A stretch of 64,000 nucleotides of DNA from Streptomyces sp. NBC_00442. Lineage in GTDB: Bacteria; Actinomycetota; Actinomycetes; Streptomycetales; Streptomycetaceae. Both the position numbers and the translations under genes were made by a program. The DNA is taken from NCBI RefSeq assembly GCF_036014195.1, contig NZ_CP107918.1, positions 806,001-870,000 of the forward strand, read 5' to 3'. The number at the start of each line of letters is the position of its first letter. Within the stretch, counting starts at the first letter, position 1. Shown here one piece after another: positions 2,184 to 56,395 of the stretch. The notes under the pieces were generated by a model. That model searched no databases, was not told the origin of the DNA, and was given only the letters and a program-made list of their open reading frames with translations.

Positions 2184-4358
2184 CTACGCGTCCTTGAACG
2201 TCTCGCCCTTCTCCGCCTTCTCCACCAGCAGGGCCGGCGGCTGGAAGCGCTCTCCGTAGCGCTCGGCCAGCTCGCGGGCGCGGGCCACGAAGCCGGGCAG
2301 ACCGCCTTCGTACCCGTTGATGTACTGCACCACCCCGCCGGTCCAGGCAGGGAAGCCGATCCCCATGATCGAGCCGATGTTGGCGTCGGCCACCGAAGTG
2401 AGGACGCCCTCCTCGAAGAGACGCACGGTGTCGAGGGACTCCGAGAAGAGCATCCTCTCCTTCATGTCCTCGAACGGGATCTCGTGACCCGGCTTGGTGA
2501 AGTGCTCGCGCAGGCCGGGCCAGAGCTTGGCCCGCTTGCCGTCCTCGCCGTACTCGTAGAACCCCGCGCCGCCGCTGCGGCCGGTGCGGCCGAACTCGTC
2601 GACCATGCGGTCGATGACCGCGTCCGAGGGATGTCCGGGCCAGACTCCGCCCGCCTCCTCGACGGCGCGCTTCGTCTCGTTGCGGATCTTGCGGGGCAGC
2701 GTCAGGGTCAGCTCGTCCATCAGGGAGAGGACCTTGGCCGGGTAACCGGCCTGCCCCGCGGCCTGCTCGACGGATGCGGGCTCGATGCCCTCGCCGACCA
2801 TCGCGACGCCCTCGTTGATGAACTGGCCGATCACGCGGGAGGTGAAGAAGCCGCGCGAGTCGTTCACCACGATCGGGGTCTTCCTGATCTGGCGTACGAG
2901 ATCGAAGGCACGGGCCAGGGCCTCATCGCCGGTGCGCTCGCCCTTGATGATCTCCACCAGCGGCATCATGTCGACGGGCGAGAAGAAGTGCAGACCGATG
3001 AAGTCGGCCTGGCGCGCGACGCCTTCGGCAAGACCGGTGATGGGCAGCGTGGAGGTGTTGGAGCAGAGCAGGGCGTCCGGCTCGACGATGTCCTGGATCT
3101 CCTGGAACACCTTGTGCTTGAGAGCGGTGTCCTCGAAGACCGCCTCGATCACGGCGTCACAGCCCGCGAGGGCCTGGGGGTCGGCGGCCGGGGTGATCAG
3201 GGCGAGCAGCGCGTCCCGCTGGGCCTCGGTCGTACGCCCGCGGGAGAGCGCTTTCGCCAGCAGTTTCTCGGAATACGCCTTGCCCCTGAGAGCGGCTTCG
3301 AGCGACACGTCCTTGAGGACGACCTCGATGCCAGCCCGTGCGCAGGAGTACGCGATGCCCGCGCCCATCATGCCGGCGCCGAGGACCGCGACCTTGCGGA
3401 CGGGGCGCGGCTCGATGCCCCGGGGGCGGCTGACGCCGGAGTTGACCGCCTGGAGGTCGAAGAAGAATGCCTGGATCATGTTCTTCGCGGTCTGCCCGGT
3501 GACCAGCTCGGTGAAGTACCGGGCCTCGATGGTGAGAGCGCTCTCGAAGTCGACCTGGGAGCCTTCGACGGCGGCGGCCAGGATGTTGCGCGGCGCCGGG
3601 TAGGGCGCGCCCTGGAGCTGCTTCTTGAGGTTGGCAGGGAACGCCGGCAGGTTGGCGGCGAAGCGGGGATTGGACGGCGTGCCGCCCGGGATCTTGTACC
3701 CCTTGACGTCCCACGGCTGCTGGGATTCGGGGTGGGTGTCGATGAACGCGTGTGCCTGGGCGAGCATTTCCTCGGGCGTGGCGGCGATCTCGTGCACGAG
3801 AGCGTTCTCCAGGGCGCGCCGCGGGGAGTACTGCGTGCCCTGGAGCAGCACCTTGAGCAGGGCGTCGGCGATGCCCAGGAGGCGGACGGTGCGGGTCACA
3901 CCGCCGCCCGCGGGGAGCAGCCCGAGCGTGACCTCGGGCAGGCCGATCTTGGAGCCGGGGGCATCCAGCGCGATGCGGTGGTGGGCGGCGAGTGCGATCT
4001 CGTAACCGCCGCCCAGGGCGGCGCCGTTGATCGCGGCGACGACCGGCTTGCCGAGCGTCTCGATGCGGCGCAGCGAGTTCTTGATGGCGGTGCCGGTGTC
4101 GAAGGCCTGCTGGGCGTGTTCGGGGCCGACCTGGATCATGTCCTTGAGGTCGCCGCCCGCGAAGAACGTCTTTTTCGCGGAGGTGTAGATGATGCCGCGG
4201 ATGGAGTCCTTCTCGGCCTCCAGGCGGTCCGCGACGGCCGCGATGGAGTCCTTGAAGGCCTGGTTCATCGTGTTGGCGGACTGGTTGGGGTCGTCGAGTA
4301 CGAGGGTGACGACGCCGGTCTCGTCTTGTTCCCAGCGGATGGTCGTGCTCTTCGTCAT
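2184..4358 (-). CDS. fadB: FadB-like multifunctional enoyl-CoA hydratase / 3-hydroxyacyl-CoA dehydrogenase
   Basis: Two consecutive beta-oxidation steps in one chain of 724 residues: hydration of enoyl-CoA and NAD-dependent oxidation of 3-hydroxyacyl-CoA. The N-terminal crotonase domain (about 1-200) carries both acid residues of true hydratases: E120 in LGGGYEIALA and E142 in LPEVTLGLLPAGGG. The dehydrogenase NAD fold starts at VAVLGAGMMGAGIA (about 323-336). The catalytic His-Glu pair lies in LHFFSPVDMMPLVEII (H457, E469), followed by the C-terminal 3HCDH domains. ATG start, 40 bp after the thiolase stop, so it is the last gene of the operon. It resembles SCO6732 from memory, unchecked. Confidence 0.95.
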   Translation of the reverse strand: MTKSTTIRWEQDETGVVTLVLDDPNQSANTMNQAFKDSIAAVADRLEAEKDSIRGIIYTSAKKTFFAGGDLKDMIQVGPEHAQQAFDTGTAIKNSLRRIETLGKPVVAAINGAALGGGYEIALAAHHRIALDAPGSKIGLPEVTLGLLPAGGGVTRTVRLLGIADALLKVLLQGTQYSPRRALENALVHEIAATPEEMLAQAHAFIDTHPESQQPWDVKGYKIPGGTPSNPRFAANLPAFPANLKKQLQGAPYPAPRNILAAAVEGSQVDFESALTIEARYFTELVTGQTAKNMIQAFFFDLQAVNSGVSRPRGIEPRPVRKVAVLGAGMMGAGIAYSCARAGIEVVLKDVSLEAALRGKAYSEKLLAKALSRGRTTEAQRDALLALITPAADPQALAGCDAVIEAVFEDTALKHKVFQEIQDIVEPDALLCSNTSTLPITGLAEGVARQADFIGLHFFSPVDMMPLVEIIKGERTGDEALARAFDLVRQIRKTPIVVNDSRGFFTSRVIGQFINEGVAMVGEGIEPASVEQAAGQAGYPAKVLSLMDELTLTLPRKIRNETKRAVEEAGGVWPGHPSDAVIDRMVDEFGRTGRSGGAGFYEYGEDGKRAKLWPGLREHFTKPGHEIPFEDMKERMLFSESLDTVRLFEEGVLTSVADANIGSIMGIGFPAWTGGVVQYINGYEGGLPGFVARARELAERYGERFQPPALLVEKAEKGETFKDA
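3534..3545. repeat. GAGAGCGCTCTC palindrome inside the fadB-like gene
   Basis: Perfect 12-bp palindrome, one of thirteen close copies in the window. On the coding (minus) strand it reads Glu-Ser-Ala-Leu with a GCT alanine codon. Confidence 0.8.
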
Positions 4359-4398
4359 TGCTCAAATCTCCGTATGAGGGGATGCCGGGACGGGACGG

Positions 4399-5613
<1,215 letters not shown>

Positions 5614-12797: not shown

Positions 12798-14438
12798 ATG
12801 TCATCTTCCCCCCGTCAGATCAGCTCGGCCGCACTGTCCTTCGCGTGGCCCGACGGCACTCCCGTCTTCGAGGACTTCCAACTCGCCGTCGGCCCTGGGC
12901 GCACCGGCCTCATCGGCCTCAACGGGTCTGGAAAGTCAACCCTGTTGAAACTGATCGCCGGTGTCCTCACCCCGACCGACGGCCACATCAGGGCCGCGGG
13001 CGAGGTCGGGTATCTGCCGCAGAACCTGGTCCTGGACACCACCCTGCGGGTGGACGAGGCCCTCGGCATCGACGCGATCCGCGCGGCGCTGCACGCCATC
13101 GAGAGCGGCGACGCCGACGAGCGGCACTTCGAGACGGTGGGCGACGACTGGGACGTCGAGGAGCGCGCCCGCGCCACTCTCGACCAGCTCGGCCTCGGCG
13201 CCATCGGCCTCGACCGCACGATCGGCGAGGTCTCGGGCGGCGAGTCGGTGCTGCTCCGGCTGGCCGCACTGCTCCTGAGGCGCCCCGACGTCCTGCTGCT
13301 CGACGAACCCACCAACAATCTGGACCTGCCCGCCCGGCGGCGCCTCTACAGCGCCGTCGATGCCTGGACCGGGGTGCTCCTCGTGGTCAGCCACGACCGG
13401 GAACTCCTGGACCGGGTGGACCGCATCGCCGATCTTCGCGAGGGCCAACTCGCCTGGTACGGCGGCAACTTCACGGCGTACGAGGAGGCGCTGCGGGCCG
13501 AACAGGAGGCGGCCGAGCGGATGGTGCGGGTGGCCGAGGCCGATGTGCAGCGGCAAAAGCGCGAACTGACCGAGTCCCAGGTGAAACTGGCGCGGCGTCA
13601 GCGGTACGGACAGAAGAGCTACGACAACAAGGTGGTGCCGAGGATCGTCGCCAACAACCGCAGGCGCGAGGCGCAGGTCTCGGCCGGCAAGCACCGCATT
13701 CTGCAGGCCGAGCGGCTCGACCAGGCGCGCGAGCGGCTCGACCAGGCGGCGGAGGCCGTACGTGACGACGAGGGCATCCGGATCGAGCTGCCGCACACCA
13801 CGGTGCACCCGGGCCGCCAGGTCCTCACCCTGCGTGAGCTCCAACTCCCCTACGGCGCACGGATGGAGGGCGAGCTCGACGTCCGCGGGCCGGAGCGGAT
13901 CGCCCTGGTGGGCCGCAACGGCTCCGGCAAGACCACCCTGCTCAGGACCATCGCCGGGCAGCTGGAGCCGGTGGCCGGCGAGGCGGTCGTCCATGTGCCG
14001 CTGCGGTTCCTGCCCCAGCGTCTCGACGTGCTCGACGACGCGCTGAGCGTGGTGGAGAACGTGGCGCGCCATGCGCCGACGGCGACGGACAACGCGATCA
14101 GGGCGCGGCTCGCGCGGTTCCTGTTCAAGGGGGCCCGCGCCGAGCGGGCGGCCGGCACGCTCTCGGGCGGAGAGCGCTTCCGTGCGTCGCTGGCGGCGCT
14201 GCTGCTCGCGGAGCCCGCGCCGAAGCTGCTGATGCTGGACGAGCCCACGAACAACCTGGACATGGCCAGCGTGAGCGCTCTCACGGCGGCCCTGGACGCG
14301 TACGAGGGCGCGCTGATCGTGGCCAGTCACGATGTGCCGTTCCTGGAGTCGATCGGTGTCACGCGCTGGCTGCTGCTCGACGGCGCGCTCACCGCCACCT
14401 CGGCGGAAGCGGTCACCGAGGGGCTCACGGCGCACTGA
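12798..14438 (+). CDS. ABC-F family ATPase (probable antibiotic-resistance ribosome protection type)
   Basis: Soluble twin-ATPase protein of 546 residues without membrane segments. Two nucleotide-binding domains each show Walker A (GLNGSGKST near 40-48 and GRNGSGKTT near 374), a signature loop (VSGGESVLL and LSGGERFRA) and Walker B ending in DEPTNNLD. Between them lies the charged linker rich in Arg/Gln/Lys typical of ABC-F proteins that reach into the ribosomal E-site. Members displace macrolides, lincosamides or similar drugs, or aid translation generally. The drug-sensing leader upstream favours a resistance role. ATG 12798 is chosen from GGGAG upstream and the usual MSSSPRQISS-like start. 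Confidence 0.9.
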   Translation: MSSSPRQISSAALSFAWPDGTPVFEDFQLAVGPGRTGLIGLNGSGKSTLLKLIAGVLTPTDGHIRAAGEVGYLPQNLVLDTTLRVDEALGIDAIRAALHAIESGDADERHFETVGDDWDVEERARATLDQLGLGAIGLDRTIGEVSGGESVLLRLAALLLRRPDVLLLDEPTNNLDLPARRRLYSAVDAWTGVLLVVSHDRELLDRVDRIADLREGQLAWYGGNFTAYEEALRAEQEAAERMVRVAEADVQRQKRELTESQVKLARRQRYGQKSYDNKVVPRIVANNRRREAQVSAGKHRILQAERLDQARERLDQAAEAVRDDEGIRIELPHTTVHPGRQVLTLRELQLPYGARMEGELDVRGPERIALVGRNGSGKTTLLRTIAGQLEPVAGEAVVHVPLRFLPQRLDVLDDALSVVENVARHAPTATDNAIRARLARFLFKGARAERAAGTLSGGERFRASLAALLLAEPAPKLLMLDEPTNNLDMASVSALTAALDAYEGALIVASHDVPFLESIGVTRWLLLDGALTATSAEAVTEGLTAH

Positions 14439-19620: not shown

Positions 19621-20673
19621 ATGCCCGGATCGCGTATCACCTTCCTCGACGGCCAGGCCGGCCAGCCGCAGGCGCTTGAGCGCGTGATCACCCATGTGCG
19701 GCAGCAGCTCGACGGCCCGGACCTCGCCCGGCTGCGCGAGGTCCGGCGCCCGCTCCTCGCCGGAATCGGCGCCTCGTACGCGGCGCTCGCCCTCCCCGTC
19801 GAGGTGCTCCGCAGCCACGGCGTACCGGCTCAGCGGGTGCTCTCCAGCGAGATCGAGGACGGCCTGCACGGCTTCGACACGGATCTCCTGATCGGGGTGT
19901 CCCAGGGCGGACGCAGCTCGGAGACGATCGCGGCGTTCAAGGCGGCGGGCGGCCCCTCGACGCTCGCCGTCCTGAACGTCAGCCCCTCCCCGCTCGGCGA
20001 ACTCGCCGAACTCACCGTCGACATGGGCAACGAACCCGACTCCTACGCCTCGACCGTCGGGTTCACCGCCACCCTCGTCGCCCTCGACCTGATCGCCGGG
20101 GCCATCGCGGGGCGCGCGGACGACCCGTGGGCGGGCATCGCCGAGCAGGCCGCGGCGGTCCGTGCCCGCGCGGCCGAGGTGGTCTCCTGTCTGCGGTCGC
20201 GCGCGGCGCTGTGCGTGGCGGCCGACTGCGTCGCCTCCGGCGCCTCCCGGGTCAGCGCGGAGGAGGCGGCCCTGCTGCTGCGCGAGGTGCCCCGCATGCC
20301 GGCCGCGGCGTCGGTCACCCGCAACTACCTGCACGGCGAGATGGAGTCGGCGGGCAACACCCTGCACCTCGTCTTCGGCGACGGCCGCGAGGTCGAGCTC
20401 GCCCGGTCCCTGTCCGGGGCCGGCCACCTCACGCTCCTGATCACCACGCAGGACGTCGACCCGGCCGGCAGCCTCGGTGTCGTACGCCTGCCCGAGAGCG
20501 CTCCCAGCGCCAGGGTCGTCCTGGAGACGGTCGTGGTGCAGGAGCTGGTGGCCGCGCTCAGCGACGAACGTGGGGTACCCATCGAGTCGTTCGTGTTCGC
20601 CAACGACGACACCAAGGAAGGCGGCGTCGACGCGGCGGACTTCGAACTGGCCTCACCGGTCGCCGCCGCCTGA
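19621..20673 (+). CDS. double-SIS sugar-phosphate isomerase/deaminase-like protein
   Basis: Cytosolic protein of 350 residues with two SIS domains, as in the isomerase half of GlmS, AgaS or fructosamine-6-phosphate deglycases. The first domain shows LLAGIGASYAALAL and the phosphosugar loop GVSQGGRSSETIAA; the second follows a CVAADCVASGASRVSAEEAALLLRE segment. There is no glutamine-amidotransferase domain. Downstream of the EIIC by 120 bp with a good AAAGGA ribosome site, it probably converts the imported sugar 6-phosphate to a glycolytic intermediate, releasing an amine or ammonia. Confidence 0.82.
   Translation: MPGSRITFLDGQAGQPQALERVITHVRQQLDGPDLARLREVRRPLLAGIGASYAALALPVEVLRSHGVPAQRVLSSEIEDGLHGFDTDLLIGVSQGGRSSETIAAFKAAGGPSTLAVLNVSPSPLGELAELTVDMGNEPDSYASTVGFTATLVALDLIAGAIAGRADDPWAGIAEQAAAVRARAAEVVSCLRSRAALCVAADCVASGASRVSAEEAALLLREVPRMPAAASVTRNYLHGEMESAGNTLHLVFGDGREVELARSLSGAGHLTLLITTQDVDPAGSLGVVRLPESAPSARVVLETVVVQELVAALSDERGVPIESFVFANDDTKEGGVDAADFELASPVAAA
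20494..20505. repeat. GAGAGCGCTCCC palindrome inside the SIS gene
   Basis: One of the thirteen close copies; read in frame as Glu-Ser-Ala-Pro with a GCT alanine codon, and flanked by AG on the right. Confidence 0.8.
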
Positions 20674-22868: not shown

Positions 22869-24113
22869 AGGGCAGCCCGGTCCGGACGGTGTGGCGCCGG
22901 GACCCGAAGCCGACGCGGGGGCGGGCGGTCCGCCGGGGCAGTCCGGCGCGCCGGGGCTGCCCGAGGGCGAGGGGCCGGTGGTCGCGCTCCCGGACGGCGA
23001 GGGCGTGGGGCCCGGCCCGCCGGGCGGCGAGGGGGACGACGACGGAGAGGCCGAAGGCGAGGGGGACGAGGACGGGGTCGGGGACGGGGAGTGGGTGGGT
23101 CCCGGGATCGAGGGGCCGCCACCGCCCGGCCGCGTCGGGACCGGAAGCGAGGGCCGCGCACTCGGCTGGGGCCCGATCACGATGCCGCCGCCCTGCTTGC
23201 GGCCGTGGTCGGCGTCGATCTGCCCCGCACTGCCCGCTCCGGGCGTGGTCGGGAGCGCTCCGTGCCCGTCCGGCACCGCATGGGTACCCCGCCGGTAGAA
23301 CTCCAGCCACGACCGCACCGTCCGCAGATAGGCGTCGGAGTGGTTGTAGCTCAGCACGGCACGGTCCAGGTCGGCGGGCACGGCGAGGTCCCGGGCGCCG
23401 GCGCACAGATAGCCTCCGGCGGCGAGCGCCGCGTCGAAGACGTTGTTGGGGTCCTTTCGCCCGTCGTCGTTGCCGTCCTGCGCCCAGGCCGACCATGTGG
23501 ACGGGATGAACTGCATGGGGCCCACCGCCCGGTCGTACCGGGCGTCGCCGTCCAGGGTTCCGTGATCGGTGTCGGCCACCCGCGCGAAGCCCGCGCCGTC
23601 GAGCACCGGCCCGAGGATCGGTGTGAGGGTCGTCCCGTGCGCGTCGACCCGCCCACCGCCCGCGTGCCCCGACTCCACTTTGCCCAGGGCGGCGAGGAGT
23701 TGCCAGGGAAGGTGGCAGCGCGGTTCGGTGCGGCGCAGCCGGCTCTGTGCCTGCTGGTAGGCGGCGAGGACGGTCGCCGGGATCCCCTCCTGCGTCCACA
23801 CCGGGTCGATCAGCGCGACACCGGGCGCGGGAGCGACGGCTCCGACCGCCTTCGGCGGGGCCTGTGGCGGGAGTTCGGCGTGAAACGACCCGTCGGAAGG
23901 GGACTCTTGACGGACCGTCACCGACGGTGGGGCGGCGGGTTCCGCCCGGCTCTGTGGCGCGGCGCGCACCAGACCGGGGGCTTGTGAGGCCGTGAGCGCC
24001 GCCATCGCTGCGGCCGCGATGGCCGTGCCGGTGAGGCCGCGCCGCAACCGTGTCCCGCCGAGCGGCCCGAGGCCGCGGGACCCGGCGACGTCACGCCACC
24101 GCGGGGCCCTCAT
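22854..24113 (-). CDS. MltB-like lytic transglycosylase, last gene of the mce operon
   Basis: Exported peptidoglycan-cleaving enzyme of 419 residues. A signal region (about 20-50) leads to the SLT domain (about 110-290), with the catalytic glutamate in LLAALGKVESGHAG and the family motifs VGPMQFIPSTW, NVFDAALAAGGYLC and AVLSYNHSDAYLRTV. The C-terminal ~120 residues are a Pro/Ser/Gly-rich tail of low complexity. The start ATG overlaps the stop of the upstream Mce-associated gene (ATGA), so the enzyme is translationally tied to the mce operon. That context suggests it opens the wall for the Mce complex. The 3' end overlaps the ligase gene by 15 bp. Confidence 0.88.
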   Translation of the reverse strand: MRAPRWRDVAGSRGLGPLGGTRLRRGLTGTAIAAAAMAALTASQAPGLVRAAPQSRAEPAAPPSVTVRQESPSDGSFHAELPPQAPPKAVGAVAPAPGVALIDPVWTQEGIPATVLAAYQQAQSRLRRTEPRCHLPWQLLAALGKVESGHAGGGRVDAHGTTLTPILGPVLDGAGFARVADTDHGTLDGDARYDRAVGPMQFIPSTWSAWAQDGNDDGRKDPNNVFDAALAAGGYLCAGARDLAVPADLDRAVLSYNHSDAYLRTVRSWLEFYRRGTHAVPDGHGALPTTPGAGSAGQIDADHGRKQGGGIVIGPQPSARPSLPVPTRPGGGGPSIPGPTHSPSPTPSSSPSPSASPSSSPSPPGGPGPTPSPSGSATTGPSPSGSPGAPDCPGGPPAPASASGPGATPSGPGCPSPTP

Positions 24114-24913: not shown

Positions 24914-24943
24914 GTGCGGCTCCTGTCCGAAGGGTGAAGGGGG

Positions 24944-25471: not shown

Positions 25472-25523
25472 GGTCTTCGTGCTCCCTCGGTGCGGTGCCG
25501 GCGGTGATGGCGGCGTGCGCGGT

Positions 25524-26252: not shown

Positions 26253-26277
26253 GCTGTTTCTCCCTACCGGTCCGGGG

Positions 26278-34712: not shown

Positions 34713-34714
34713 GG

Positions 34715-36537: not shown

Positions 36538-37949
<1,412 letters not shown>

Positions 37950-38079: not shown

Positions 38080-39621
38080 GTGAGCAGAACCCCGGGAACG
38101 GCCGGCCGGTGGCGAAGCGTGCGCAGCCGGGGTGCGGTGGCGGCGGCCACCGTGGTCCTGGCCGCGATCGTGCCCGGCGCCGACGTGGCCCTCGGAGACC
38201 AGCGCACCAGCGCCGAACTCTCCTACACCTGCGCGTTCCCGTCCGGTGCGCACCCGGTGACGGTGCAGGTGGCGGCCAGGTTTCCGACACGAGCGGCGAC
38301 GGGCGCCGCGATCCGGCCCGCCGAGGTGACCACATCGGTGACGCTTCCCGACGCCGCCGTCGCCGAACTCACCAAGCTCCGCGCCGCCACGACCGGCGCC
38401 ACCACCAGCCTCACCACCGAGATCACCCAGAACGGCGCGGCGGCACAGGCCCTCTGGCTGGGCACCGCGCCCTCCGTGCCGCTCACCTCACCCGGCGGCG
38501 CCGTGTTCCGGGCGACGGGCGAGGTGCCCACCGTCACCGCCAACAGCCCCGGCGACCTCACCGTCACGGCGGCCGGCCTCACCCTCGCGTTCCGCCCGGT
38601 CACCACCGAGGGCGGCGCCACCGACCCGGCCACGCTCTCCGTGCCCTGTACGCCTGCCCCCGGTGCGAAGGGCCTGCTCGCCACGGTGCCCGTCGGCGCC
38701 GCGCCCTCCTCGTCCGCCCCGAGCCCGAGCGCCTCCGCCACCGGCGCGGCGACCGGTGGCGCGACCGGTGGCGGAACGCCCCGCACCCCTGAGAGCGCTC
38801 CCAGGATCGCCCCGCCCAAGGCGCAGGCCGCCCCGGCCGCCTCCGCTCCCCCGTGTCAGGGCGACCCCGCCGACCCGTTGGCCCTCGCGGCCTACACCAC
38901 CGGCTACTCCAACGTCACCAAGATGGGCGAGGCCTCGCTCATCCCCGTCTTCTGCGCCAAGATCGTCCAGGGGCCCAACCAGCTCAAGCGCATCGAGGTC
39001 CGCCCGGGGGTCTTCGAACTGCACCTGCTCCAGAACTCGGTGGGGCGGCTCGACTACCGGGGCCGCGCCCAGACCCCGCCGGGGCCGGCCACGTTCCTCA
39101 CCTTCGGCTTCATGCCGACCACGGCCACGATGACGCTGGAGGCGACCGGGCCCCTGTCCATCGAGTCGGACCTCAACAACACCGCGGGGCACGGCGAGAC
39201 GTACATCAGGGCCTCCCTGGTGCTGCACATCTCCGACGTCAAGGTCAACGGGACGCCCCTCGATGTCGGCCCCGACTGCCGCACCACCGGGCCGGTCTAC
39301 TCCACCGACCCCGACCCGGCGCGCAACACCAAGGACCACATGGTCGTGCTGGGGGAACTCAAGAAGGGCACGGACACCGTCTGGCGCGGCTACTCGCTCT
39401 CCCGCGGCGGACCCCTCGACGGTTCGGTGACCATTCCGCCGTTCACCGGCTGCGGGGTGGGCGAGGACCTCAGCCCGCTGTTCACCGCCTCGGTGTCCGG
39501 CCCGTCCAACACGGTCAAGCAGAACCAGGGGGCACCGTGCGCCTCCGGCATCGAGGACGACCCGGCGCAGCTCTGCACCGCCGACAAGCAGCCGACGACG
39601 ATCCCGACGCCCCTGCGCTGA
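38080..39621 (+). CDS. large secreted protein with DUF6801-like N-terminal domain
   Basis: 513 residues. A signal region (about 13-40, GAVAAATVVLAAIVPGADVALG) is followed by a beta-rich domain (about 45-200) starting ELSYTCAFPSGAHPVTVQVAARFP, which resembles DUF6801 as I remember it. A Ser/Pro/Ala/Gly linker (about 205-255) leads to a second domain (about 265-500) with PVFCAKIVQGPNQLKRIEVRPGVFEL and TIPPFTGCGVGEDLSPLFTASVSG. The last part has the same layout as the third protein's C-terminus (TGCG or SGCG, then SNT or KNS), hinting at shared ancestry. The GTG start is uncertain: GGAG lies about 13 bases before it. Confidence 0.7.
   Translation: MSRTPGTAGRWRSVRSRGAVAAATVVLAAIVPGADVALGDQRTSAELSYTCAFPSGAHPVTVQVAARFPTRAATGAAIRPAEVTTSVTLPDAAVAELTKLRAATTGATTSLTTEITQNGAAAQALWLGTAPSVPLTSPGGAVFRATGEVPTVTANSPGDLTVTAAGLTLAFRPVTTEGGATDPATLSVPCTPAPGAKGLLATVPVGAAPSSSAPSPSASATGAATGGATGGGTPRTPESAPRIAPPKAQAAPAASAPPCQGDPADPLALAAYTTGYSNVTKMGEASLIPVFCAKIVQGPNQLKRIEVRPGVFELHLLQNSVGRLDYRGRAQTPPGPATFLTFGFMPTTATMTLEATGPLSIESDLNNTAGHGETYIRASLVLHISDVKVNGTPLDVGPDCRTTGPVYSTDPDPARNTKDHMVVLGELKKGTDTVWRGYSLSRGGPLDGSVTIPPFTGCGVGEDLSPLFTASVSGPSNTVKQNQGAPCASGIEDDPAQLCTADKQPTTIPTPLR
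38791..38802. repeat. GAGAGCGCTCCC palindrome in the secreted-protein gene
   Basis: Full TGAGAGCGCTCCCA match (38790-38803). In frame it reads Glu-Ser-Ala-Pro, within a run using CCT, GCT and AGG, all rare codons here. Confidence 0.8.
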
Positions 39622-40905: not shown

Positions 40906-40999
40906 CAGCAGTCCGCGAAGGTACGCACCTGTCGGTCGGTGGGAGCGCTTTCTCCATCGGCCCTCCCCCACCGGAGTGCCGTAGTGCAAGGGGAGTGAG

Positions 41000-42208
41000 A
41001 TGCCCACAGCCGCGCAGTCATCGGACACCCAGGAGCCCCTGGGTCCGCTCCCACAGGAGTTCGCCGCGATCATGCGTCCCGAGTTACCGGGCCTGCTCAA
41101 GGAGATCGGCGCGGAGGTCACGCGCGCCTATCCCGAGTACGCCCGGCTCCTCGACGGCCCCTACGGCGAGGCGATCCGGGTCGGTGTCGAGCAGAACCTC
41201 ACCGTCTTCGTCGACCAGGTGGCGTCCCCCAGCGCCCCCTCCGCGCTCCGCGACGAGATGTGCCGCCGCTTCGGCCGGTTCGAGGCGTACGAGGGCCGGA
41301 GCCTGGAGACCCTCCAGGGGGCCTACCGGCTCGGCGCCCGGGTCGCGCTGCGCCGCGCCAAGAAGATCGGCCGGCGCTACAACCTCTCCCCCGCGCTGAT
41401 GCTCAGCTTCGCCGATGCGCTGTTCACCTACGTCGAGGAGCTGGAAGCGCTCTCACGCGACGGCTACCTGGAGGTCACCTCGTTCTCCGGAGAGCGTTCC
41501 GACGCGCTGCGAAGACGGCTGCTGCATCTGATCCTGGCCGGCTCCCCGGTGCCGCGCGCGGCGATCGCCGACCTCGCCGACCGGGCCCGCTGGGCGCTGC
41601 CCGAGCGGGTCACGCTGATCGCGCTCCGCTCGGGGGCGGGTCTCACCCGTGCGGCATTGGACAACGATGTCCTCGTGGACGCGGGCGAACCCCTCCCTCA
41701 CCTCCTGGTGCCGGGACCGGTCGACGAGGCGCGAAGACGGATGCTCGACGCCGCCCTGCTCGGCTCCTGGGCCGCGGTCGGCCTCGAAGTGCCCATCGGC
41801 GATGCGTCCGATTCGCTGCGCTGGGCCCGCCAGGTTCTGGAACTGGCCGCCTCGGGGGTCATCGACGGCGACTCGGGCCGGCTGTACTGCGAGGACCACC
41901 TCGTCACCCTGTGGCTGCGCTCCGATCCGGCGCTGCTCGAACACCTCGGGCGGCGTGAACTCGCGCCGCTCGACGCGCTCACTCCCGGCCGGCGCGACCG
42001 GCTCATCGAGACCCTGCGGACCTGGCTCGCGACCCGCGGTACCGCCGCCCACATGGGCGAACTCCTTGCCGTGCACCCGCAGACGGTGCGCTACCGGATG
42101 CGCACCCTGGAGTCCATCTTCGGCGCCCGGCTCACCGACCCCGAACACCGGTTCGCCACCGAACTAGTGCTACGCGCCAGGGATCTCGGCCGCAGGGATC
42201 GCCCCTGA
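41000..42208 (+). CDS. PucR/CdaR-type transcriptional regulator with a TTA codon
   Basis: 402 residues. The C-terminal helix-turn-helix is typical of PucR proteins: AHMGELLAVHPQTVRYRMRTLESIFG (about 350-380), preceded by a GGDEF-like middle part and an N-terminal helical domain (about 20-170) with ETLQGAYRLGARVALRRAKKIG. Codon 29 is TTA (41084-41086), read only by the bldA tRNA in Streptomyces, so full expression should be restricted to development. It lies between the secreted proteins and the Pls-like synthetase, all on the same strand, and may control either. ATG with GGGGAG upstream. Confidence 0.88.
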   Translation: MPTAAQSSDTQEPLGPLPQEFAAIMRPELPGLLKEIGAEVTRAYPEYARLLDGPYGEAIRVGVEQNLTVFVDQVASPSAPSALRDEMCRRFGRFEAYEGRSLETLQGAYRLGARVALRRAKKIGRRYNLSPALMLSFADALFTYVEELEALSRDGYLEVTSFSGERSDALRRRLLHLILAGSPVPRAAIADLADRARWALPERVTLIALRSGAGLTRAALDNDVLVDAGEPLPHLLVPGPVDEARRRMLDAALLGSWAAVGLEVPIGDASDSLRWARQVLELAASGVIDGDSGRLYCEDHLVTLWLRSDPALLEHLGRRELAPLDALTPGRRDRLIETLRTWLATRGTAAHMGELLAVHPQTVRYRMRTLESIFGARLTDPEHRFATELVLRARDLGRRDRP

Positions 42209-42373: not shown

Positions 42374-45300
42374 ATGTCTTCGCATCCGCCGGCCGTCTTC
42401 CGCGGCGCAGCCGCCCCGCACCCCCGCACCCTGCTCGACGTACTGGACGCGACGGCGGCCGCCCATCCGGGCGCACCCGCACTCGACGCGGGCGGCGAGA
42501 GGCTCACCTACCAGGACCTGTGCGACCGGATCACCGAGCGCGCCGTGCGCCTCACCCGCCACGGCATCGGTCCCGGCGACCGGGTCGGCGTCCGCATCCC
42601 GTCCGGCACCTGCGACCTGTATCTCGCCATCCTGTCGGTCCTGTTGTGCGGCGCGGCGTACGTGCCGGTCGACGCCGACGACCCCGAGGAGCGCGCGGTG
42701 ACCGTCTTCCGCGAGGCCGGGGTGTGCGCGGTCATCGAGGCCGACGAGCGGATACTGCCGGGATTCACGGCACCGCGGGGCGTCCGGTGGCGGGCCGCGC
42801 GGCCGGAGGACGACGCCTGGATCATCTTCACGTCCGGCTCGACGGGGCTGCCCAAGGGCGTCGCGGTCAGCCACCGTTCGGCCGCTGCTTTCGTGGACGC
42901 CGAGGCCCAACTCTTCTTGAGAGAACGGCCTTTGGGGCCGGGCGACCGGGTTCTCGCCGGCCTTTCGGTGGCGTTCGACGCCTCGTGCGAGGAAATGTGG
43001 CTGGCATGGCGGCACGGCGGCTGTCTGGTTCCCGCGCCCCGGTCGCTGGTGCGGGCGGGGCACGAACTCGGGCCCTGGCTCGTGGAGCGCGGCATCACGG
43101 TGGTCTCCACGGTGCCGACGCTCGCGGCGCTCTGGCCCGACGAGGCGCTGGAGGAGGTGCGGCTCCTGATCGTCGGCGGCGAGGCCTGTCCGGGCGCCCT
43201 GGCCGACCGGTTCGCGGTGAAGGGCCGCGAGATGTGGAACACCTACGGTCCGACCGAGACGACGGTGGTGGCAACGGCTGCCCGCATGCTGCCGGGCGAG
43301 CCGGTCCGCATCGGACTGCCGCTCGCGGGCTGGGAGTTGGCGGTTCTGGACGCGGCCGGAGACCCCGTTCCGTACGGAGCGGAGGGCGAGCTGGTCATCG
43401 CGGGGGCCGGCACCGCCCGCTACCTCGACGGCGCCAAGGACGCCGAACGCTTCACGCCGCTGCCCCTCCTCGACACGCTGCGCGCCTATCGCACCGGGGA
43501 CCTGGTGCGGGCCGACGCGGCCGGGCTCGTCCACATCGGCCGGGCCGACGACCAGGTCAAGGTGGGTGGGCGGCGCATCGAACTCGGCGAGATCGACGCC
43601 ATGCTGAGAGCGCTCCCAGGGGTGCGGGCGGCGGCCTGCGCGGTCCGCGGCACCCCGGCCGGAGGCCAGATCCTGGTCGGCTACGTCGTCCCCGAGCAGG
43701 CCGGCTTCCGCGCCGACCAGGCCCGCGGCTTCCTCGCCGAACGACTTCCGGCCGCTCTGGTGCCGATGCTCGTCGAGGTGCCGGGCCTGCCGACCCGCAC
43801 ATCGGGCAAGGTCGACCGGGACGCCCTGCCCTGGCCGCTTCCCTCCCAGCGCGGCCCGGCGGCCGGGGCCCCGGCCGGGCAGGAAGGTCCGACCGTGGCC
43901 CGTCTCGCCGGGGCGTGGGAGCGGATGCTGGGGGTGCGCCCGCAGCCGGACAGCGACTTCTTCGCGCTCGGCGGTTCCAGCCTGAGCGCCGCGCGGCTCG
44001 CCTCCGAGCTGCGCGAGCACTATCCGGGCGTGTCCGTCGCCGACCTCTACCGCCGTCCCCTTTTGCGGGACATGGCCCAGCACCTCGAATCGCTCGAAGG
44101 CCCCACGGCAAAGACGCAGGCCGTCCAGCCCGTGCCCCGCGGCGCCGCCGTGGTCCAACTCCTCGTGACCACGGCCCTGTTCGGGGTGGCCGGTCTTCGC
44201 GGCCTGGTCGCCCTGGCCGCGCTCGACAACATCGTGGGCTGGCTCGCTCCCCAGGCCTGGGCCCCGCACACCTCGTGGTGGTTCGTGCTGGTCGCCACGG
44301 TGGTCCTGATGAGCGCGCCCGCCCGCTTCGCGATCGGCGCGGGGGCGGCGCGCCTGCTGACCCGGGGGGTGGGGGCAGGTGCCCATCCGCGGGGCGGCCG
44401 CGTCCATCTGCGGCTGTGGACGGCCGAGCGCGTCGTGGCGGCGTTCGGCGTTCCGTCCCTGCTGGGCACGCCCTGGGCGCGTCTGTACGCGCGGGCGCTC
44501 GGCTGCCGTCTGGGCCGGGACGTCGCCCTGCACGCCATGCCCCCGGTGACCGGCCTCGCGACGATCGGCCGCGGCGCCAGCGTGGAGCCGGAGGCCGACA
44601 TCAGTGGCTGGTGGCTGGACGGGGCGACGCTGCACATCGGCCCGGTCCACATCGGCGACGGCGCACGGGTAGGACACCGCAGCACCCTGCTGCCCGGCGC
44701 GGTCCTCGGCGCCGACTCCGAACTGGAGCCCGGCGCCTGCCTCGGCGGTCGCATCCCGCCCGGCCGGCGCTGGCTCGGCTCACCGGCCCGGCAGGGGGAG
44801 GCGTACGAGCGTGTCGCCGGCACCGGCTGGCCCGCGCCGCGCCCGGGGCGCTCGCGCCGCTGGGCCGCAGCGTACGCGCTCTCGCTCGTCGCACTGCCGC
44901 TCCTGACGCTGCTGTCCACCGCTCCGGCGCTGGTCGGCGTCTACTTCCTGGTGCGTTCCTGCGACACGCTCTCGCAGGTCGCCGTACGCCTGCTCCTGTC
45001 GGCGCCGCCCATCGCGATGGCGACCACCCTGTCCTCCATGCTGGTGCTCGCCGCCCTCGTACGGATCCTCGGGCGGGGCATCAAGCCCGGCTTCCACCCG
45101 GTGTGCGGCGGCGTCGCCTGGCGCGCCTGGCTGGTGACACGGCTCGTCGGCGGCGCCCGCGGCAGCCTCTTCCCGCTGTACGCGAGCCTGGCGACGCCGG
45201 TGTGGCTGCGGCTGCTCGGGGCGCGGGTGGGGCGGCGCGCCGAGATCTCGACCGTGCTGCCGCTGCCCTCGCTCCTGACTGTCGAGGACGGGGCGTTCCT

Positions 45301-46324
45301 CGCCGACGACACACTGGTGGCGCCGTACGAAATCCGGGGCGGCTGGCTCAAGTTGGGCACCGCGAACGTCGGGCGCAGGGCCTTCGTCGGCAATTCGGGC
45401 ATCGTCGGACCGGACCGCCGGGTGCCTGACAACGCGCTGATCGGCGTGTTGTGCGACGCGCCCGCGCAGAGCGAGCCGGGCAGCTCCTGGCTCGGGCGGC
45501 CTGCGCTTCCGCTGCCCAGAGTGGCGGCCACGGCCGATCCCGGCCGGACCTTCGACCCGCCGCGCCGGCTCGTGCTGGCCCGCGCCGGCGTCGAGCTGTG
45601 CAGGGTGGTGCCGCTGATGTGCTCGGTGCTGCTCGCCGAGGCCGTACTCATCGGTGAGCAGAGCGCTCTCAACCGGGGCGGCCTTGTGTTCGCCGCGCAG
45701 GCGGGCACGGTGCTCCTGCTGGCCGCCGCCGTCGTGGCGGGGCTGACGGCGACCGCGGCGAAGTGGATCCTGGTCGGCCGGTTCGAGGCGGGCGAACATC
45801 CGCTGTGGTCGTCCTTCGTGTGGCGCAACGAGCTGTACGACACCTTCGTGGAATCCCTCGCGGTGCCGTGGATGGCGGGCTCCTTCACCGGGACCCCGGT
45901 CCTCAACTGGTGGCTGCGCAGCCTGGGGGCGCGGATCGGGCGCGGGGTGTGGCTGGAGACGTACTGGCTGCCGGAGACCGATCTCGTCACCCTCGGGGAC
46001 GGAGTGAGCGTGAACCGCGGGTGTGTGCTCCAGACCCACCTCTTCCACGACCGGATCATGCGGCTGGACACGGTGCGGCTCGCCGAGGGCGCGTCGCTCG
46101 GCCCGCACAGCATCGCGCTGCCCGGCACCGACATCGGCGCCCGCGCTTCGGTGGGCGCCGCGTCGCTGGTGATGCGCGGCGAGAGCGTGCCGCCCGACAC
46201 CCGCTGGGCGGGCAACCCCATCGCGGGCGAGCGGCCCGTCCCGGCTGCCGACGAACTAGTGCGACTGGAACCGATGGTGACGGCTCGTCAGGAGACTTCG
46301 CCCCGGGAAGGGAGCACCGCGTGA
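42374..46324 (+). CDS. Pls/PosA-family NRPS (epsilon-poly-L-lysine synthetase type)
   Basis: 1316 residues, nearly the 1319 of epsilon-polylysine synthetase. Order: adenylation domain (about 20-485; A3 TSGSTGLPKG at 153, A10 TSGKV with K479), carrier domain with phosphopantetheine serine S536 (ALGGSSL), then about 700 residues with six membrane segments framing hexapeptide-like repeats such as GRGASVEPEADISG. There is no condensation or thioesterase domain. The substrate residues read by analogy with PheA give DAESIGTVVK, close to the lysine code DAESIGSVCK that I recall for bacitracin synthetase, so lysine or another diamino acid is likely. ATG 42374 follows AGAGG. The stop overlaps the M1 peptidase. 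Confidence 0.92.
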   Translation: MSSHPPAVFRGAAAPHPRTLLDVLDATAAAHPGAPALDAGGERLTYQDLCDRITERAVRLTRHGIGPGDRVGVRIPSGTCDLYLAILSVLLCGAAYVPVDADDPEERAVTVFREAGVCAVIEADERILPGFTAPRGVRWRAARPEDDAWIIFTSGSTGLPKGVAVSHRSAAAFVDAEAQLFLRERPLGPGDRVLAGLSVAFDASCEEMWLAWRHGGCLVPAPRSLVRAGHELGPWLVERGITVVSTVPTLAALWPDEALEEVRLLIVGGEACPGALADRFAVKGREMWNTYGPTETTVVATAARMLPGEPVRIGLPLAGWELAVLDAAGDPVPYGAEGELVIAGAGTARYLDGAKDAERFTPLPLLDTLRAYRTGDLVRADAAGLVHIGRADDQVKVGGRRIELGEIDAMLRALPGVRAAACAVRGTPAGGQILVGYVVPEQAGFRADQARGFLAERLPAALVPMLVEVPGLPTRTSGKVDRDALPWPLPSQRGPAAGAPAGQEGPTVARLAGAWERMLGVRPQPDSDFFALGGSSLSAARLASELREHYPGVSVADLYRRPLLRDMAQHLESLEGPTAKTQAVQPVPRGAAVVQLLVTTALFGVAGLRGLVALAALDNIVGWLAPQAWAPHTSWWFVLVATVVLMSAPARFAIGAGAARLLTRGVGAGAHPRGGRVHLRLWTAERVVAAFGVPSLLGTPWARLYARALGCRLGRDVALHAMPPVTGLATIGRGASVEPEADISGWWLDGATLHIGPVHIGDGARVGHRSTLLPGAVLGADSELEPGACLGGRIPPGRRWLGSPARQGEAYERVAGTGWPAPRPGRSRRWAAAYALSLVALPLLTLLSTAPALVGVYFLVRSCDTLSQVAVRLLLSAPPIAMATTLSSMLVLAALVRILGRGIKPGFHPVCGGVAWRAWLVTRLVGGARGSLFPLYASLATPVWLRLLGARVGRRAEISTVLPLPSLLTVEDGAFLADDTLVAPYEIRGGWLKLGTANVGRRAFVGNSGIVGPDRRVPDNALIGVLCDAPAQSEPGSSWLGRPALPLPRVAATADPGRTFDPPRRLVLARAGVELCRVVPLMCSVLLAEAVLIGEQSALNRGGLVFAAQAGTVLLLAAAVVAGLTATAAKWILVGRFEAGEHPLWSSFVWRNELYDTFVESLAVPWMAGSFTGTPVLNWWLRSLGARIGRGVWLETYWLPETDLVTLGDGVSVNRGCVLQTHLFHDRIMRLDTVRLAEGASLGPHSIALPGTDIGARASVGAASLVMRGESVPPDTRWAGNPIAGERPVPAADELVRLEPMVTARQETSPREGSTA
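43606..43617. repeat. GAGAGCGCTCCC palindrome inside the Pls-like gene
   Basis: Full TGAGAGCGCTCCCA match (43605-43618). In frame it reads Leu-Arg-Ala-Leu-Pro with the rare codons AGA and CCA, in a conserved part of the adenylation domain. Confidence 0.85.
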
Positions 46325-50903: not shown

Positions 50904-52976
50904 GTGACCACCGCCAGCGATGCAGCGCCCGTGTCAACGCCACCCGTGCTCGATGTCCGGCAGCGGAACATCGTCTTCGGAACGATCATGCTCGGCATGC
51001 TGCTGGCCGCGCTCGACCAGACCATCGTCGGGACCGCGCTCCCCACCATCGTCTCGGACCTCGGAGGCGCCGCCCACATGTCGTGGGTGGTCACCTCCTA
51101 CCTTCTGGCGGAGACCGTCGCCACCGCCCTGGTGGGCAAGTTCGGGGACCTGTTCGGCCGCAAGGTCGTCTTCCAGGTCTCCGCGATCATCTTCATCACC
51201 GGATCGTTCCTGTGCGGGCTGGCGACGAACATGTCGCTCCTCATCGCCTGGCGGGCGCTCCAGGGCGTCGGCGCCGGCGGTCTGATGGTGACCGCGATGG
51301 CGTTGATCGCCGACGTGATCCCGCTGCGCGAACGCGGCAAGTACCAGGGAGCGATCGGCGCCGTGTTCGGCGTGTCCACCGTCATCGGTCCGCTGCTCGG
51401 CGGACTGTTCACGGACCACCTGACCTGGCGCTGGGCGTTCTATGTCAACGTCCCCATCGCCATCGTCGTGGTGATCGCGGCGGCCCGGAACATCCCCTCG
51501 GTCCGCTCGACGGCCAAGCCGGTCATCGACTACCTCGGCATCGGCCTGGTCGCCGCCGGCTCCAGCGCCCTGATCCTGGCCACGAGTTGGGGCGGCAACG
51601 AGTACGCCTGGGGTTCCGCGACCATCATCACCCTGTTCGCGGCCGGAGTGATCGCGCTCTCACTGTTCTGCTGGGCGGAGACCCGGGCCGCCGAGCCGAT
51701 GCTGCCGATGCGGCTGTTCCGCAACCCCGTCTTCACCGTGTGCTCGGTCCTCAGTTTCATCGTCGGGTTCGCGATGCTCGGCGCGATGACCTTCCTGCCG
51801 ACCTATCTCCAATACGTCGACGGCGACTCGGCCACGGTCTCCGGCGTACGTACCCTGCCCATGGTCATCGGACTGCTCATCGCATCGATCTTCAGCGGCA
51901 ACGTGGTCAGCAGGACCGGCCAGTACCGGATCTTCCCCATCGTCGGCGCCCTGGTCATGGGGGTGGGCCTCTACCTCCTCTCGCTGATGGGGCCCGACGT
52001 CGGCGCCTGGCTGGAATCGCTCTACATGTTCGTGCTGGGCCTGGGAATCGGGCTGTGCATGCAGGTCCTCACCATCGCCGTGCAGAACACCGTCGACTAC
52101 GCCGACCTGGGCACGGCGACGTCCGGAGTGACCTTCTTCCGTACGCTCGGCAGCTCGTTCGGCACCGCCGTCTTCGGCACCATCTACGCCAACACCCTGA
52201 AGACCAACCTGCAGGACGGGATCGCGGCGGCGGCGCGCGCCGGCGGTACGAACCCGGCGCAGCTCACCAAGGCGGCGCAGTCGCCGGAGGGCCTGCACCA
52301 GCTGCCCCCGGCGTCGTCCGCCCCCATCGTTCAGGCCTATTCCGACAGCCTCCACACCGTGTTCCTGTGGACGGTCCCGGTCGCCCTCGTGGGCTTCCTG
52401 GTCGCGCTCTTCCTCAAGCAGGTGGAGTTGCGGGACAGCGCGCGTTCGTCCTCCACCGACATGGGCGAGGGCTTCGCCCAGCCGACCACGGGCGACTCCG
52501 CCAAGGTGCTCGAACTCGCCGTGGGCAAGATCGTGCGTGGGGCGGACATGACCACGGCGCGACGCATCGTGGCGGCCTCCGACACCCGGCTCGACGTGGC
52601 CGGCGCCTGGGCCGTCATGCAGGTCGATCAGCACACGCGCATGGTCGGCCACGCCAGCCTCGGCCTGATCGCCTCCCGTCGTCACGTGCCGCCGGAGGTT
52701 CTGGTGCCCGTGTTCCAGCGAATGGTCGACGAGGGGTTCCTCAGTCGCGAGGGCAGCTACTTCTCGCACACCCCCGCCGGAGAGCGCGAGGTCGCGGCCA
52801 TCACCGATTCGTGGGCGACCTGGCTCAACGAGCAGCTGGAGAAGGACCGGGGCCGGCCGCGCAGCGCGGAACTCCGCGCCGCCGCGGACACGATCGCCAA
52901 GCGCCTGATGGCCGAGGACCTCGCCAACGGGCTGCCCGCGGCCCGCGAGAGAGTGGGCACGGCCACCCGCCTCTGA
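50904..52976 (+). CDS. DHA2-family multidrug exporter fused to a winged-helix domain
   Basis: 690 residues. Residues 1-515 are a 14-segment MFS exporter: motif C-like ALIPLR region, [19 protein letters not shown], motif [15 protein letters not shown] and [13 protein letters not shown]. Residues about 545-690 carry a MarR-like winged helix ([24 protein letters not shown], then [30 protein letters not shown]) that looks cytoplasmic. GTG 50904 fits because it starts at MTTASDAAP before the first helix. Antibiotic or dye export is likely. The C-terminal codons are duplicated downstream (see 52975). Confidence 0.9.
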
Positions 52977-53122
52977 GAGCGGGCACGGCCACCCGCCTCC
53001 GAGAGCGCTCCCGGCCACCCGCGCCCGAGAGCGCGCCGCCGGTTGCCTCACCTCTGAGAGCGCTCCCTGTCGCCCCACCCCGGAGAGCGCCCCGGCCACA
53101 CGCACCACCTGAGAGCGCTCCC
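52975..53122. repeat. array of six GAGAGCG units between convergent genes
   Basis: GAGAGC-core units start at 52975, 53001, 53037, 53056, 53083 and 53111, spaced 19-36 bp. Three (53001-53012, 53056-53067, 53111-53122) are full GAGAGCGCTCCC; the others are degenerate (GAGAGCGGGC, GAGAGCGCGCCG, GAGAGCGCCCCG). The first two are embedded in a 26-bp duplication of the end of the exporter gene, GGCACGGCCACCCGCCTC from 52956 and again from 52982. Confidence 0.85.
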
Positions 53123-53766: not shown

Positions 53767-53815
<49 letters not shown>

Positions 53816-53828
53816 AGGGAACCCCAAC

Positions 53829-55437: not shown

Positions 55438-55504
55438 CGACTCATCACACGCACTCCACACGCACTCCGCCCCCGCCGGGGCCCCCGCCCGTCTCGCCCC
55501 GCGC

Positions 55505-55530
55505 GCACGCCCGGCCGCGGCCGGGCGTGC
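55505..55530. terminator. 26-bp perfect palindrome between convergent genes
   Basis: GCACGCCCGGCCG and its exact complement CGGCCGGGCGTGC abut at 55517/55518 with no spacer, giving a 13-bp stem in cruciform form (hairpin with a short loop if four central bases open). It lies between the secreted protein and the methyltransferase, so it probably terminates both. Confidence 0.7.
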
Positions 55531-55588
55531 CGGGCCACGGCCCCGTCGCGGCCTCACGGCTTCCGGACCACCTCCGGCCCCGCGGGCC

Positions 55589-56395
55589 TCAGACCTTGCG
55601 GGCCACGCCGGCGTAGACGGGGATCGTCTCGTCCCCGTCGAGAGCGCTCTCACCGAGCTCGGGGTGCCAGAAGGCAGCAAGGCCGACGCCCGGGGCGGCC
55701 AGTTCACGGCCGTGGAAGAAGCGGGTGACCTCCGCCTTGGTCCGCGGGCGCAGCGTGACGCCGCCGCCCTTGTACAGCTCCACCGCGCGGGCCGCGCTCT
55801 CCTGGTCGAAGTCGCCGGTGATCTGCGACAGGACCAGGTAGCTGCCCGGCGCGAAGACGTCGAGGAGGCGGTTGACGATGCCGTACACATCGTCGTCGTC
55901 CCCGATGAAGTGCGTCAGAGCGATCAGCGAGACCGCTACGGGGCGCTCGAAGTCCAGGGTGTGGCGGGCGAGTTCGAGAATGCGCTCGGGTTCGCGGGCG
56001 TCGGCCTGGATGTACTCGGTGACGCCGTCGGGCGCGGAGCGCAGCAGTGCCTCCGCGTGGCGCAGCACGATCGGGTCGTTGTCCGCGTACACGATACGGG
56101 CGTCGGGTGCGGTGCGCTGGGCGACCTGGTGGAGGTTGGGCTCGGTGGGGATGCCGGTGCCGATGTCGAGGAACTGGCCTACGCCCCGCTCGGCGAGCCA
56201 GCGCGTGGCGCGGTGCATGAAGGCACGGTTGACCCGGGCGATGTCCCGGCCGCGCGAGTCGAGCGCGAGCAGCTGCTCGGCGAGCACCTCGTCGACCGGG
56301 TAGTTGTCCTTGCCGCCGAGGAACCAGTCGTAGACACGGGCCGGATGGGGCTTGCTGGTGTCGATCTGGACGGCGGTGCGGTCTTGCCCGGTCAT
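55589..56395 (-). CDS. SAM-dependent methyltransferase (DUF574 / Methyltransf_19 family)
   Basis: 268 residues. Family hallmarks: IDTSKPHPARVYDWFLGGKDNYPVD at the start, motif I VGQFLDIGTGIPTEPNLHQ and the SAM-contact ARIVYADNDPIVLRHAEALL. These enzymes are numerous in Streptomyces and their substrates are unknown; many lie near WhiJ-type or DUF397 genes, as here. ATG start. Contains a copy of the iterated palindrome at 55640-55651. Confidence 0.9.
   Translation of the reverse strand: MTGQDRTAVQIDTSKPHPARVYDWFLGGKDNYPVDEVLAEQLLALDSRGRDIARVNRAFMHRATRWLAERGVGQFLDIGTGIPTEPNLHQVAQRTAPDARIVYADNDPIVLRHAEALLRSAPDGVTEYIQADAREPERILELARHTLDFERPVAVSLIALTHFIGDDDDVYGIVNRLLDVFAPGSYLVLSQITGDFDQESAARAVELYKGGGVTLRPRTKAEVTRFFHGRELAAPGVGLAAFWHPELGESALDGDETIPVYAGVARKV
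55640..55651. repeat. GAGAGCGCTCTC palindrome inside the methyltransferase gene
   Basis: Perfect 12-bp palindrome; on the coding strand it reads Glu-Ser-Ala-Leu with a GCT codon. Confidence 0.8.

Follow-up and report, generated by a model that had tools for sequence, protein, structure and literature searches.

Putative CelR-like LacI operators concentrated in one 179-kb domain of a Streptomyces chromosome

Few bacteria are known to have chromosome domains defined by sites, and how these originate is an open question. A palindrome iterated within coding sequence is known from cyanobacteria, where HIP1 is spread genome-wide. For the MatP/matS system of the Escherichia coli Ter macrodomain, a 13-bp target repeated 23 times in 800 kb has been reported (PMC3330122), and the distal rrn operons are reported to bound the central compartment of the Streptomyces chromosome (PMC9723626). 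The CelR/CebR operators of actinobacteria are known from sites upstream of sugar and cellulase genes, and one account treats the motif TGAGAGCGCTCTCA, found in front of sugar operons, as a CelR-like operator that varies the CelR site (PMC3377646). The element considered here is the palindromic site GRGAGCGCTCYC, found repeatedly in a window (the whole stretch of DNA analysed, 64,000 nucleotides) comprising positions 806,001-870,000 of the chromosome of Streptomyces sp. NBC_00442 (G000:C1), a single contig of 7,725,772 bp (7.73 Mb). We give about an even chance to the reading that these palindromes are CelR-like LacI operators marking a single domain of ~180 kb, located towards the left end of the chromosome in a small clade, with a LacI-family protein encoded at the edge of that domain as their probable binder. 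The nearest named loci and proteins to the region are from Streptomyces, and no description of such a domain was found in the open-access papers searched for the 12-mer and for clustering of LacI sites in Streptomyces.

Distribution of the site along the chromosome and across genomes

The window contains 13 copies of the site, where 100 dinucleotide shuffles averaged 0.13 and never exceeded 1, and a further 14 12-mers lie one mismatch away from it, versus 1 for the consensus read backwards. A preliminary description of the window had listed 13 sites, all of which (13 of 13) are present where it placed them, and its rough expectation of well under one copy agrees with the shuffles. Its implied picture of sites scattered over the genome did not hold. 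The whole chromosome contains 52 sites (50 of them listed individually), against 5 for the backward pattern used as the genome control, and 36 of the 52 fall inside 802,131-980,962, a segment of 179 kb that makes up 2.3% of the chromosome (binomial p about 1e-46). This domain starts 3.9 kb left of the window and ends 111 kb right of it, the window representing a third of its length. Its sites average one per about 5 kb, with arrays in places, and it is visibly distinct also when up to 3 mismatches of the 14-mer are allowed; at that threshold no match was found between 986 and 1050 kb, the 64 kb to its right.

The preliminary description had favoured an element akin to HIP1. Sites that are palindromic, iterated and mostly intragenic would suit a DNA mark spread over the whole genome, whether of the HIP1, the restriction-modification or the repair type, and the likeness to HIP1 as a palindrome iterated in coding sequence is real. 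However, there is no genome-wide over-representation here: the sites occupy one 179-kb domain of a 7.73-Mb chromosome in one clade among the genomes examined, the DNA beyond the right edge is empty as described above, and most of 392 genomes of the genus are not enriched for the site. A HIP1-like element is therefore hardly credible, and a repair or restriction mark is not favoured given this regional restriction.

The two ends of the chromosome share an identical 11.6-kb terminal inverted repeat, which marks it as linear. The sole DnaA match lies at 3.72 Mb, about 2.7-2.9 Mb from the domain, which at 0.80-0.98 Mb is neither at the origin nor at the telomere. Origin or terminus marking is ruled out by the dnaA position together with the terminal inverted repeat, and the clustering near the origin that characterises ParB/parS is absent at this distance from dnaA (the parS sequence itself was not searched). 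Eight rrn operons are present, the leftmost at 1.32 Mb, and the domain lies outside it. Because the distal rrn operons are the limits of the central compartment, the domain is placed in the left terminal compartment. The rrn-bounded compartments resemble the domain in being a structural partition of the linear chromosome (PMC9723626); unlike it, they are delimited by rrn operons found across the genus and not by iterated operators in one clade. On the right arm, no more than 2 of the 52 sites, the unlisted ones, lie beyond 4.6 Mb, and no separate search for a mirror domain was made.

Three relatives share the domain: Streptomyces sp. WM6378 (G061, a draft), CB01201 (G062) and a third genome, G330. 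The number of sites in the domain is 36 in NBC_00442, 43 in G330, 40 in WM6378 (two contigs in part, C119:1-220,000 and C306:1-40,000) and 34 in CB01201, and the whole-genome counts of the three relatives are 58, 61 and 45, respectively; 14 of the 61 WM6378 sites lie outside the listed or examined sequence. The left edge is common to all four genomes, the outermost left site being upstream of a LacI-family gene in each, with stray sites further left at 742 and 766 kb in NBC_00442 and at about NBC_00442 748 kb in G330. On the NBC_00442 scale the right edge falls at 981 kb in NBC_00442, 981 kb in G330 and 982 kb in CB01201, the three genomes examined for it; in NBC_00442 it coincides with gas-vesicle genes (978000-981300). 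Across the 392 genus genomes, NBC_00442 included, the lowest count is 1 and the highest 58; G330 alone has more than the 52 of NBC_00442. Site positions cover two of four other high-count genomes, G382 (48 of 48 sites placed) and G142 (27 of 41 placed) but not G091 or G196, and in both the sites are scattered over many contigs. Among the genomes examined, the domain is restricted to one clade.

The 14 other listed sites of NBC_00442 comprise 6 in two satellites, 2 at 306 kb and singles at 576, 742, 766, 2,729, 3,716 and 4,609 kb. The satellites, at 1189177-1193151 (4 sites) and 1243995-1245707 (2 sites), begin 208 kb past the right edge of the domain, and G330 and CB01201 have counterparts of the one at 1,189-1,193 kb, with 5 and 2 sites, respectively. 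Far from the domain, at 4608927-4608949, two overlapping tandem sites lie upstream of a secreted-enzyme-like gene and resemble a classical operator.

Origin of the sites and selection upon them

Two outgroup genomes, G194 and G326, are collinear with NBC_00442 over all or most of the domain. On the NBC_00442 scale, the comparison with G194 covers 796-935 kb and that with G326 covers 766-978 kb, the last 3-46 kb of the domain being outside it. In 180 kb of G194 and 220 kb of G326 collinear with the domain region there are no 12-bp sites, and the 12-mers at orthologous positions differ from the NBC_00442 site at 1-6 bases. The sites thus appear to have arisen through substitutions in resident genes. 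Both outgroups carry the LacI gene (79% identical) at the same place and with the same neighbours; no other perfect palindrome is comparably enriched around it, the top 12-mer having 3 and 4 copies versus 18 in the NBC_00442 domain.

The sites might instead have come with a mobile repeat, through gene conversion or on an element acquired horizontally, and an array with a period of 26-28 bp in the window (52949-53122) did grow by local duplication. Similarity around domain sites nevertheless ends at about 14 bp, and the segment is collinear with outgroups that lack the sites; this explanation as a whole is very improbable, and horizontal acquisition is ruled out by the collinearity over the compared ranges.

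The sites are maintained at the level of DNA, as the preliminary description had supposed. When codons were shuffled within each domain gene 500 times, preserving the proteins, the mean number of sites was 0.27 and the maximum 3, versus 25 observed, which rules out a protein-level cause. Conservation was assessed for 44 NBC_00442 sites, dropping those without an alignment across the site (11 for G330, 17 for CB01201 and 26 for WM6378). The consensus is kept at 27 of 33 aligned sites in G330, where 35% of flanking 12-mers are identical (p 5e-8), and at 11 of 27 in CB01201, where 20% are (p 0.01); p-values for conservation, codons and placement treat sites of related genomes as independent. Rare codons behave in the same way. 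Among alignments of at least 75% identity, GCT codons are kept in G330 at 10 of 10 positions inside sites versus 34 of 156 elsewhere in the same genes (p 7e-7), and AGA codons at 6 of 6 versus 16 of 40 (p 0.008). Retention of rare codons inside sites so far above that elsewhere shows that selection acts on the DNA.

Individual positions are less stable than the total. In the reverse comparison NBC_00442 has 25 of 34 aligned G330 sites, 10 of 18 from CB01201 and 8 of 14 from WM6378; positions turn over while the domain total stays at 34-43. Moreover, for 26 of the relatives' 118 sites the surrounding DNA has no match in the NBC_00442 DNA compared, suggesting that it is position in the domain that counts and not the identity of the gene. 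The densest patch found, G061:C306:1-34000 of WM6378, holds 20 sites in 34 kb, and 14 of these are in DNA that matches nothing in the NBC_00442 region compared.

The operator motif and its candidate binder

The 12-bp pattern of the domain sites, copies inside genes included, is GAGAGCGCTCYC. The 153 domain sites of the four genomes comprise 78 copies of GAGAGCGCTCTC, 73 of GAGAGCGCTCCC and 2 of GGGAGCGCTCCC, and the next outward base is C or T in 82% of them. Sites of the YGAGAGCGCTCYCR type have the central AGCGCT palindrome of a CelR-type operator. Judged by its sequence, the domain motif is thus a putative LacI-family, CelR-like operator, sharing the TGAGAGCGCTCTCA motif with CelR/CebR operators. 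The earlier equation with the CebR operator stands as regards the LacI-family CelR/CebR type and fails as regards the exact core GGGAGCGCTCCC, present in only the 2 of 153 sites.

With genes called by a simple caller of our own rather than taken from annotation, 104 of the 153 sites lie inside coding sequence (CDS), in frames 0, 2 and 1 at 52, 46 and 6 sites, and 49 lie outside. The view that most sites are not promoter operators is borne out by these figures. The host genes are unrelated, including genes for fatty-acid oxidation, mce, SIS, AMP-binding, methyltransferase, histidine kinase and gas vesicle proteins, whereas known CelR/CebR sites lie upstream of sugar and cellulase genes. Sites in promoters of sugar-use genes, as a CelR/CebR regulon would have, are not the pattern of the domain, and a CebR promoter regulon is unsupported by both the placement and the rarity of the exact core.

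NBC_00442 has 16 LacI-family genes, one of which, at 802,295-803,317, stands at the left edge of the domain with sites 164 bp upstream and just downstream; NBC_00442, G330, WM6378 and CB01201 all have the upstream operator at this gene, a feature in common with CelR/CebR systems. The nearest solved relative of its product (hereafter edge LacI) is the LacI-family chain 5ysz (308 bits), which we take to be Thermobifida CelR. With a cutoff of E at most 1e-90, 340 of the 392 genus genomes encode an orthologue. Of ten orthologues from outside the clade that were examined, 8 are preceded by a related site with 1-3 mismatches, which ties this LacI family to the motif. Within the clade the edge LacI forms a group of eight proteins at 88% identity or more, the next being at 78%; the group includes proteins of NPDC strains, which are 88-93% identical. 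Eight positions carry clade-specific changes, none in the helix-turn-helix, and they give no obvious clue.

An operator kept as a density over a fixed segment, in all kinds of genes and with a likely binder at its edge, looks like the marking of a domain. We infer, from comparisons of sequence, that the edge LacI binds the sites, that the sites act jointly and that what results is domain architecture, not the control of many single genes. Dimers of the edge LacI would bind some 35-45 sites, the outermost of them in the promoter region of its own gene; the bound sites would interact via bridging, looping or a partner, and through this interaction the segment would be folded, anchored or locally silenced in its own way, on the model of MatP and matS in the E. 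coli Ter region. In common with MatP/matS, a short palindromic-type site is iterated, confined to one large domain and rare outside it, and a dedicated binder is proposed. Unlike MatP/matS, the domain is not at the replication terminus, the site is a LacI-type operator found in one clade, the candidate binder is a LacI-family protein at the domain edge and the spacing is about one site per 5 kb versus one matS per about 35 kb. By analogy, then, the domain may work like MatP/matS without being a member, its location and its presumed binder's family being different.

Somewhat short of an even chance is given to the further proposal that a metabolic LacI repressor was recruited as a domain organiser, its operators seeded by point mutation in resident genes over 180 kb adjoining its own gene and kept as a density, making a young system resembling MatP/matS. 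If true, such a system would exist in the terminal compartment of a linear chromosome and be young enough that collinear kin are still without sites. One clade has the domain and collinear outgroups lack it, the candidate binder is found in either group, and for the intragenic sites gain, loss and selection can all be measured. How a chromosomal domain is born, or else how the sites of a regulator spread around the gene that encodes it, would thus be directly testable in culturable non-model Streptomyces.

Several observations weigh against domain marking by the edge LacI. The helix-turn-helix is the same in the eight clade proteins and in the outgroup proteins shown, so the protein alone fails to explain a domain found only in the clade. 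Its length is ordinary and its C-terminal ends lack an obvious tetramer tail of the kind that E. coli LacI has; bridging would therefore need other means. Given 16 LacI-family genes, about 0.37 are expected by chance in a 180-kb stretch, and the edge LacI is telling only through its matching operator and its position at the edge. Some sites lie outside the domain (the 14 listed in NBC_00442, 6 of them in satellites) and the density inside is uneven, with 1 site in 180-260 kb of CB01201 and 3 in 886-926 kb of NBC_00442. Conservation in WM6378 taken alone is weak (8 of 18 sites versus 26% of flanking 12-mers; p 0.07). Sites are also enriched outside CDS (49 of 153 versus about 16% of bases, range 12-18%), which fits regulation too, and a second CelR-like LacI gene at 312 kb has an operator-like site in NBC_00442, G330 and CB01201.

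The enrichment outside CDS counts in favour of a plainer possibility, that an ordinary LacI repressor has its target promoters nearby and that the intragenic sites are auxiliary operators, roadblocks or local-concentration sites. LacI-family regulators do use auxiliary operators inside genes, lac O2 being the precedent, and some intergenic sites, often in 2-3 copies, recur in the orthologous gap of all four genomes: those upstream of the LacI gene, of the gene located at 876,184 and of another at 882,585, which is of the ROK family. However, two thirds of the sites (104 of 153) are in CDS, and gaps between divergent genes are under-used, with 11 of 49 intergenic sites versus 34% of intergenic bases (p 0.06); a further 12 of 49 lie between convergent genes, which hold 13% of those bases. 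The unrelated families of the host genes, the turnover of positions at a similar total and the sites in lineage-specific DNA also speak against such a local regulon, which we regard as unlikely while giving it real weight.

The gene at 312 kb (312244-313284) has a GAGAGCGCTCTA site (AGAGCGCTCT) just upstream and a probable beta-glucosidase gene as its neighbour. Its product, which has a closely similar helix-turn-helix, is conserved at 95% identity in G330 and at 91% in CB01201. This protein, CebR or an unrelated nucleoid protein of like specificity might thus be the binder of the domain sites, with the edge LacI a neighbour by chance. Against the 312-kb protein, the WM6378 draft has the domain and yet no orthologue above 49% identity was found in it. 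Against CebR, the exact core GGGAGCGCTCCC, so scarce in the domain, accounts for 34 of the 48 listed sites in one unrelated Streptomyces and for 20 of 27 in another, both with many dispersed sites. Another binder is accordingly improbable, and the edge LacI is preferred. Two full sites at 306216-306477 lie near other secreted-enzyme-like genes; the sites at 306 and 312 kb, outside the domain, are beside glycoside-hydrolase-like genes (products named from translations) and probably belong to an ordinary regulon for sugar use whose motif is nearly identical.

Sites and near-sites within the window

Gene families were assigned by a scan of 30 of the 56 called window genes and 30 others. The rare codons that had been pointed out at 33542 and 43606 agree with the called reading frames. 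The eight weaker relatives named earlier also exist, within two bases of where they had been placed, seven with one mismatch and one with two.

Table 1. Sites, one-mismatch near-sites and array in the window (window coordinates; strand of host gene in brackets)
Feature	Sequence	Position	Location	In relatives or remarks
Site	GAGAGCGCTCTC	3534..3545	3-hydroxyacyl-CoA dehydrogenase/enoyl-CoA hydratase gene (2184-4358, -), frame 0	kept G330; one mismatch WM6378, CB01201
Site	GAGAGCGCTCCC	20494..20505	SIS-domain gene (19621-20673, +), frame 0	kept G330 only
Site	GAGAGCGCTCCC	28848..28859	mce gene (28100-29347, -)	kept G330, WM6378, CB01201
Site	GAGAGCGCTCCC	30041..30052	mce gene (29344-30510, -)	kept G330, WM6378, CB01201
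Site	GGGAGCGCTCTC	31799..31810	mce gene (31619-32650, -)	kept G330, WM6378, CB01201
Site	GAGAGCGCTCTC	33542..33553	mce gene (32647-33912, -), rare AGA and TCA codons	kept G330, WM6378, CB01201
Site	GAGAGCGCTCCC	38791..38802	DUF6801 gene (38137-39621, +)	kept G330, CB01201; lost WM6378
Site	GAGAGCGCTCCC	43606..43617	AMP-binding/PP-binding gene (42374-46324, +), rare AGA and CCA codons	kept CB01201; one mismatch G330; lost WM6378
Site	GAGAGCGCTCCC	53001..53012	intergenic array	
Site	GAGAGCGCTCCC	53056..53067	intergenic array	
Site	GAGAGCGCTCCC	53111..53122	intergenic array	
Site	GAGAGCGCTCCC	54841..54852	gene without Pfam match (54778-55437, +)	kept G330 only
Site	GAGAGCGCTCTC	55640..55651	Methyltransf_19 gene (55589-56395, -)	kept G330 only
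Near-site	GAGAGCGCTTTC	3244..3255		one mismatch
Near-site	GAGAGCGCTTCC	14170..14181		one mismatch
Near-site	GGGAGCGCTCCG	23251..23262		one mismatch; full site in G330
Near-site	GGGAGCGCTTTC	29465..29476		one mismatch
Near-site	GGGAGCGCTTTC	40941..40952		one mismatch
Near-site	GGAAGCGCTCTC	41443..41454		one mismatch
Near-site	CAGAGCGCTCTC	45659..45670		one mismatch
Degenerate tandem array		52949..53122		period 26-28 bp; full sites 53001, 53056, 53111; weaker units 52975, 53027, 53083

The array runs from the 3' end of an MFS gene into the intergenic stretch ahead of a convergent gene. In G330 the orthologous gap holds two near-sites, whereas the stretches shown for WM6378, CB01201, G326 and G194 have none. 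Among 28 pairs of sites within 300 bp, helical phasing gave a vector length of 0.51 at 11.0-11.2 bp and 0.44 at 10.2 bp; eleven periods were tried on pairs that are not independent, and no claim is drawn.

The mce operon of the clade (window 24000-37000) is ~70% identical to the outgroups, much of the flanking DNA being at 78-91%, and by this measure the operon appears to be divergent or replaced. WM6378 and CB01201 are about 86.5% identical to NBC_00442 over the mce region. In the 20.8-kb mce locus there are 6 sites in the window, 5 in WM6378 and 6 in CB01201, and among 78 other loci compared, 71 have none and 7 have one.

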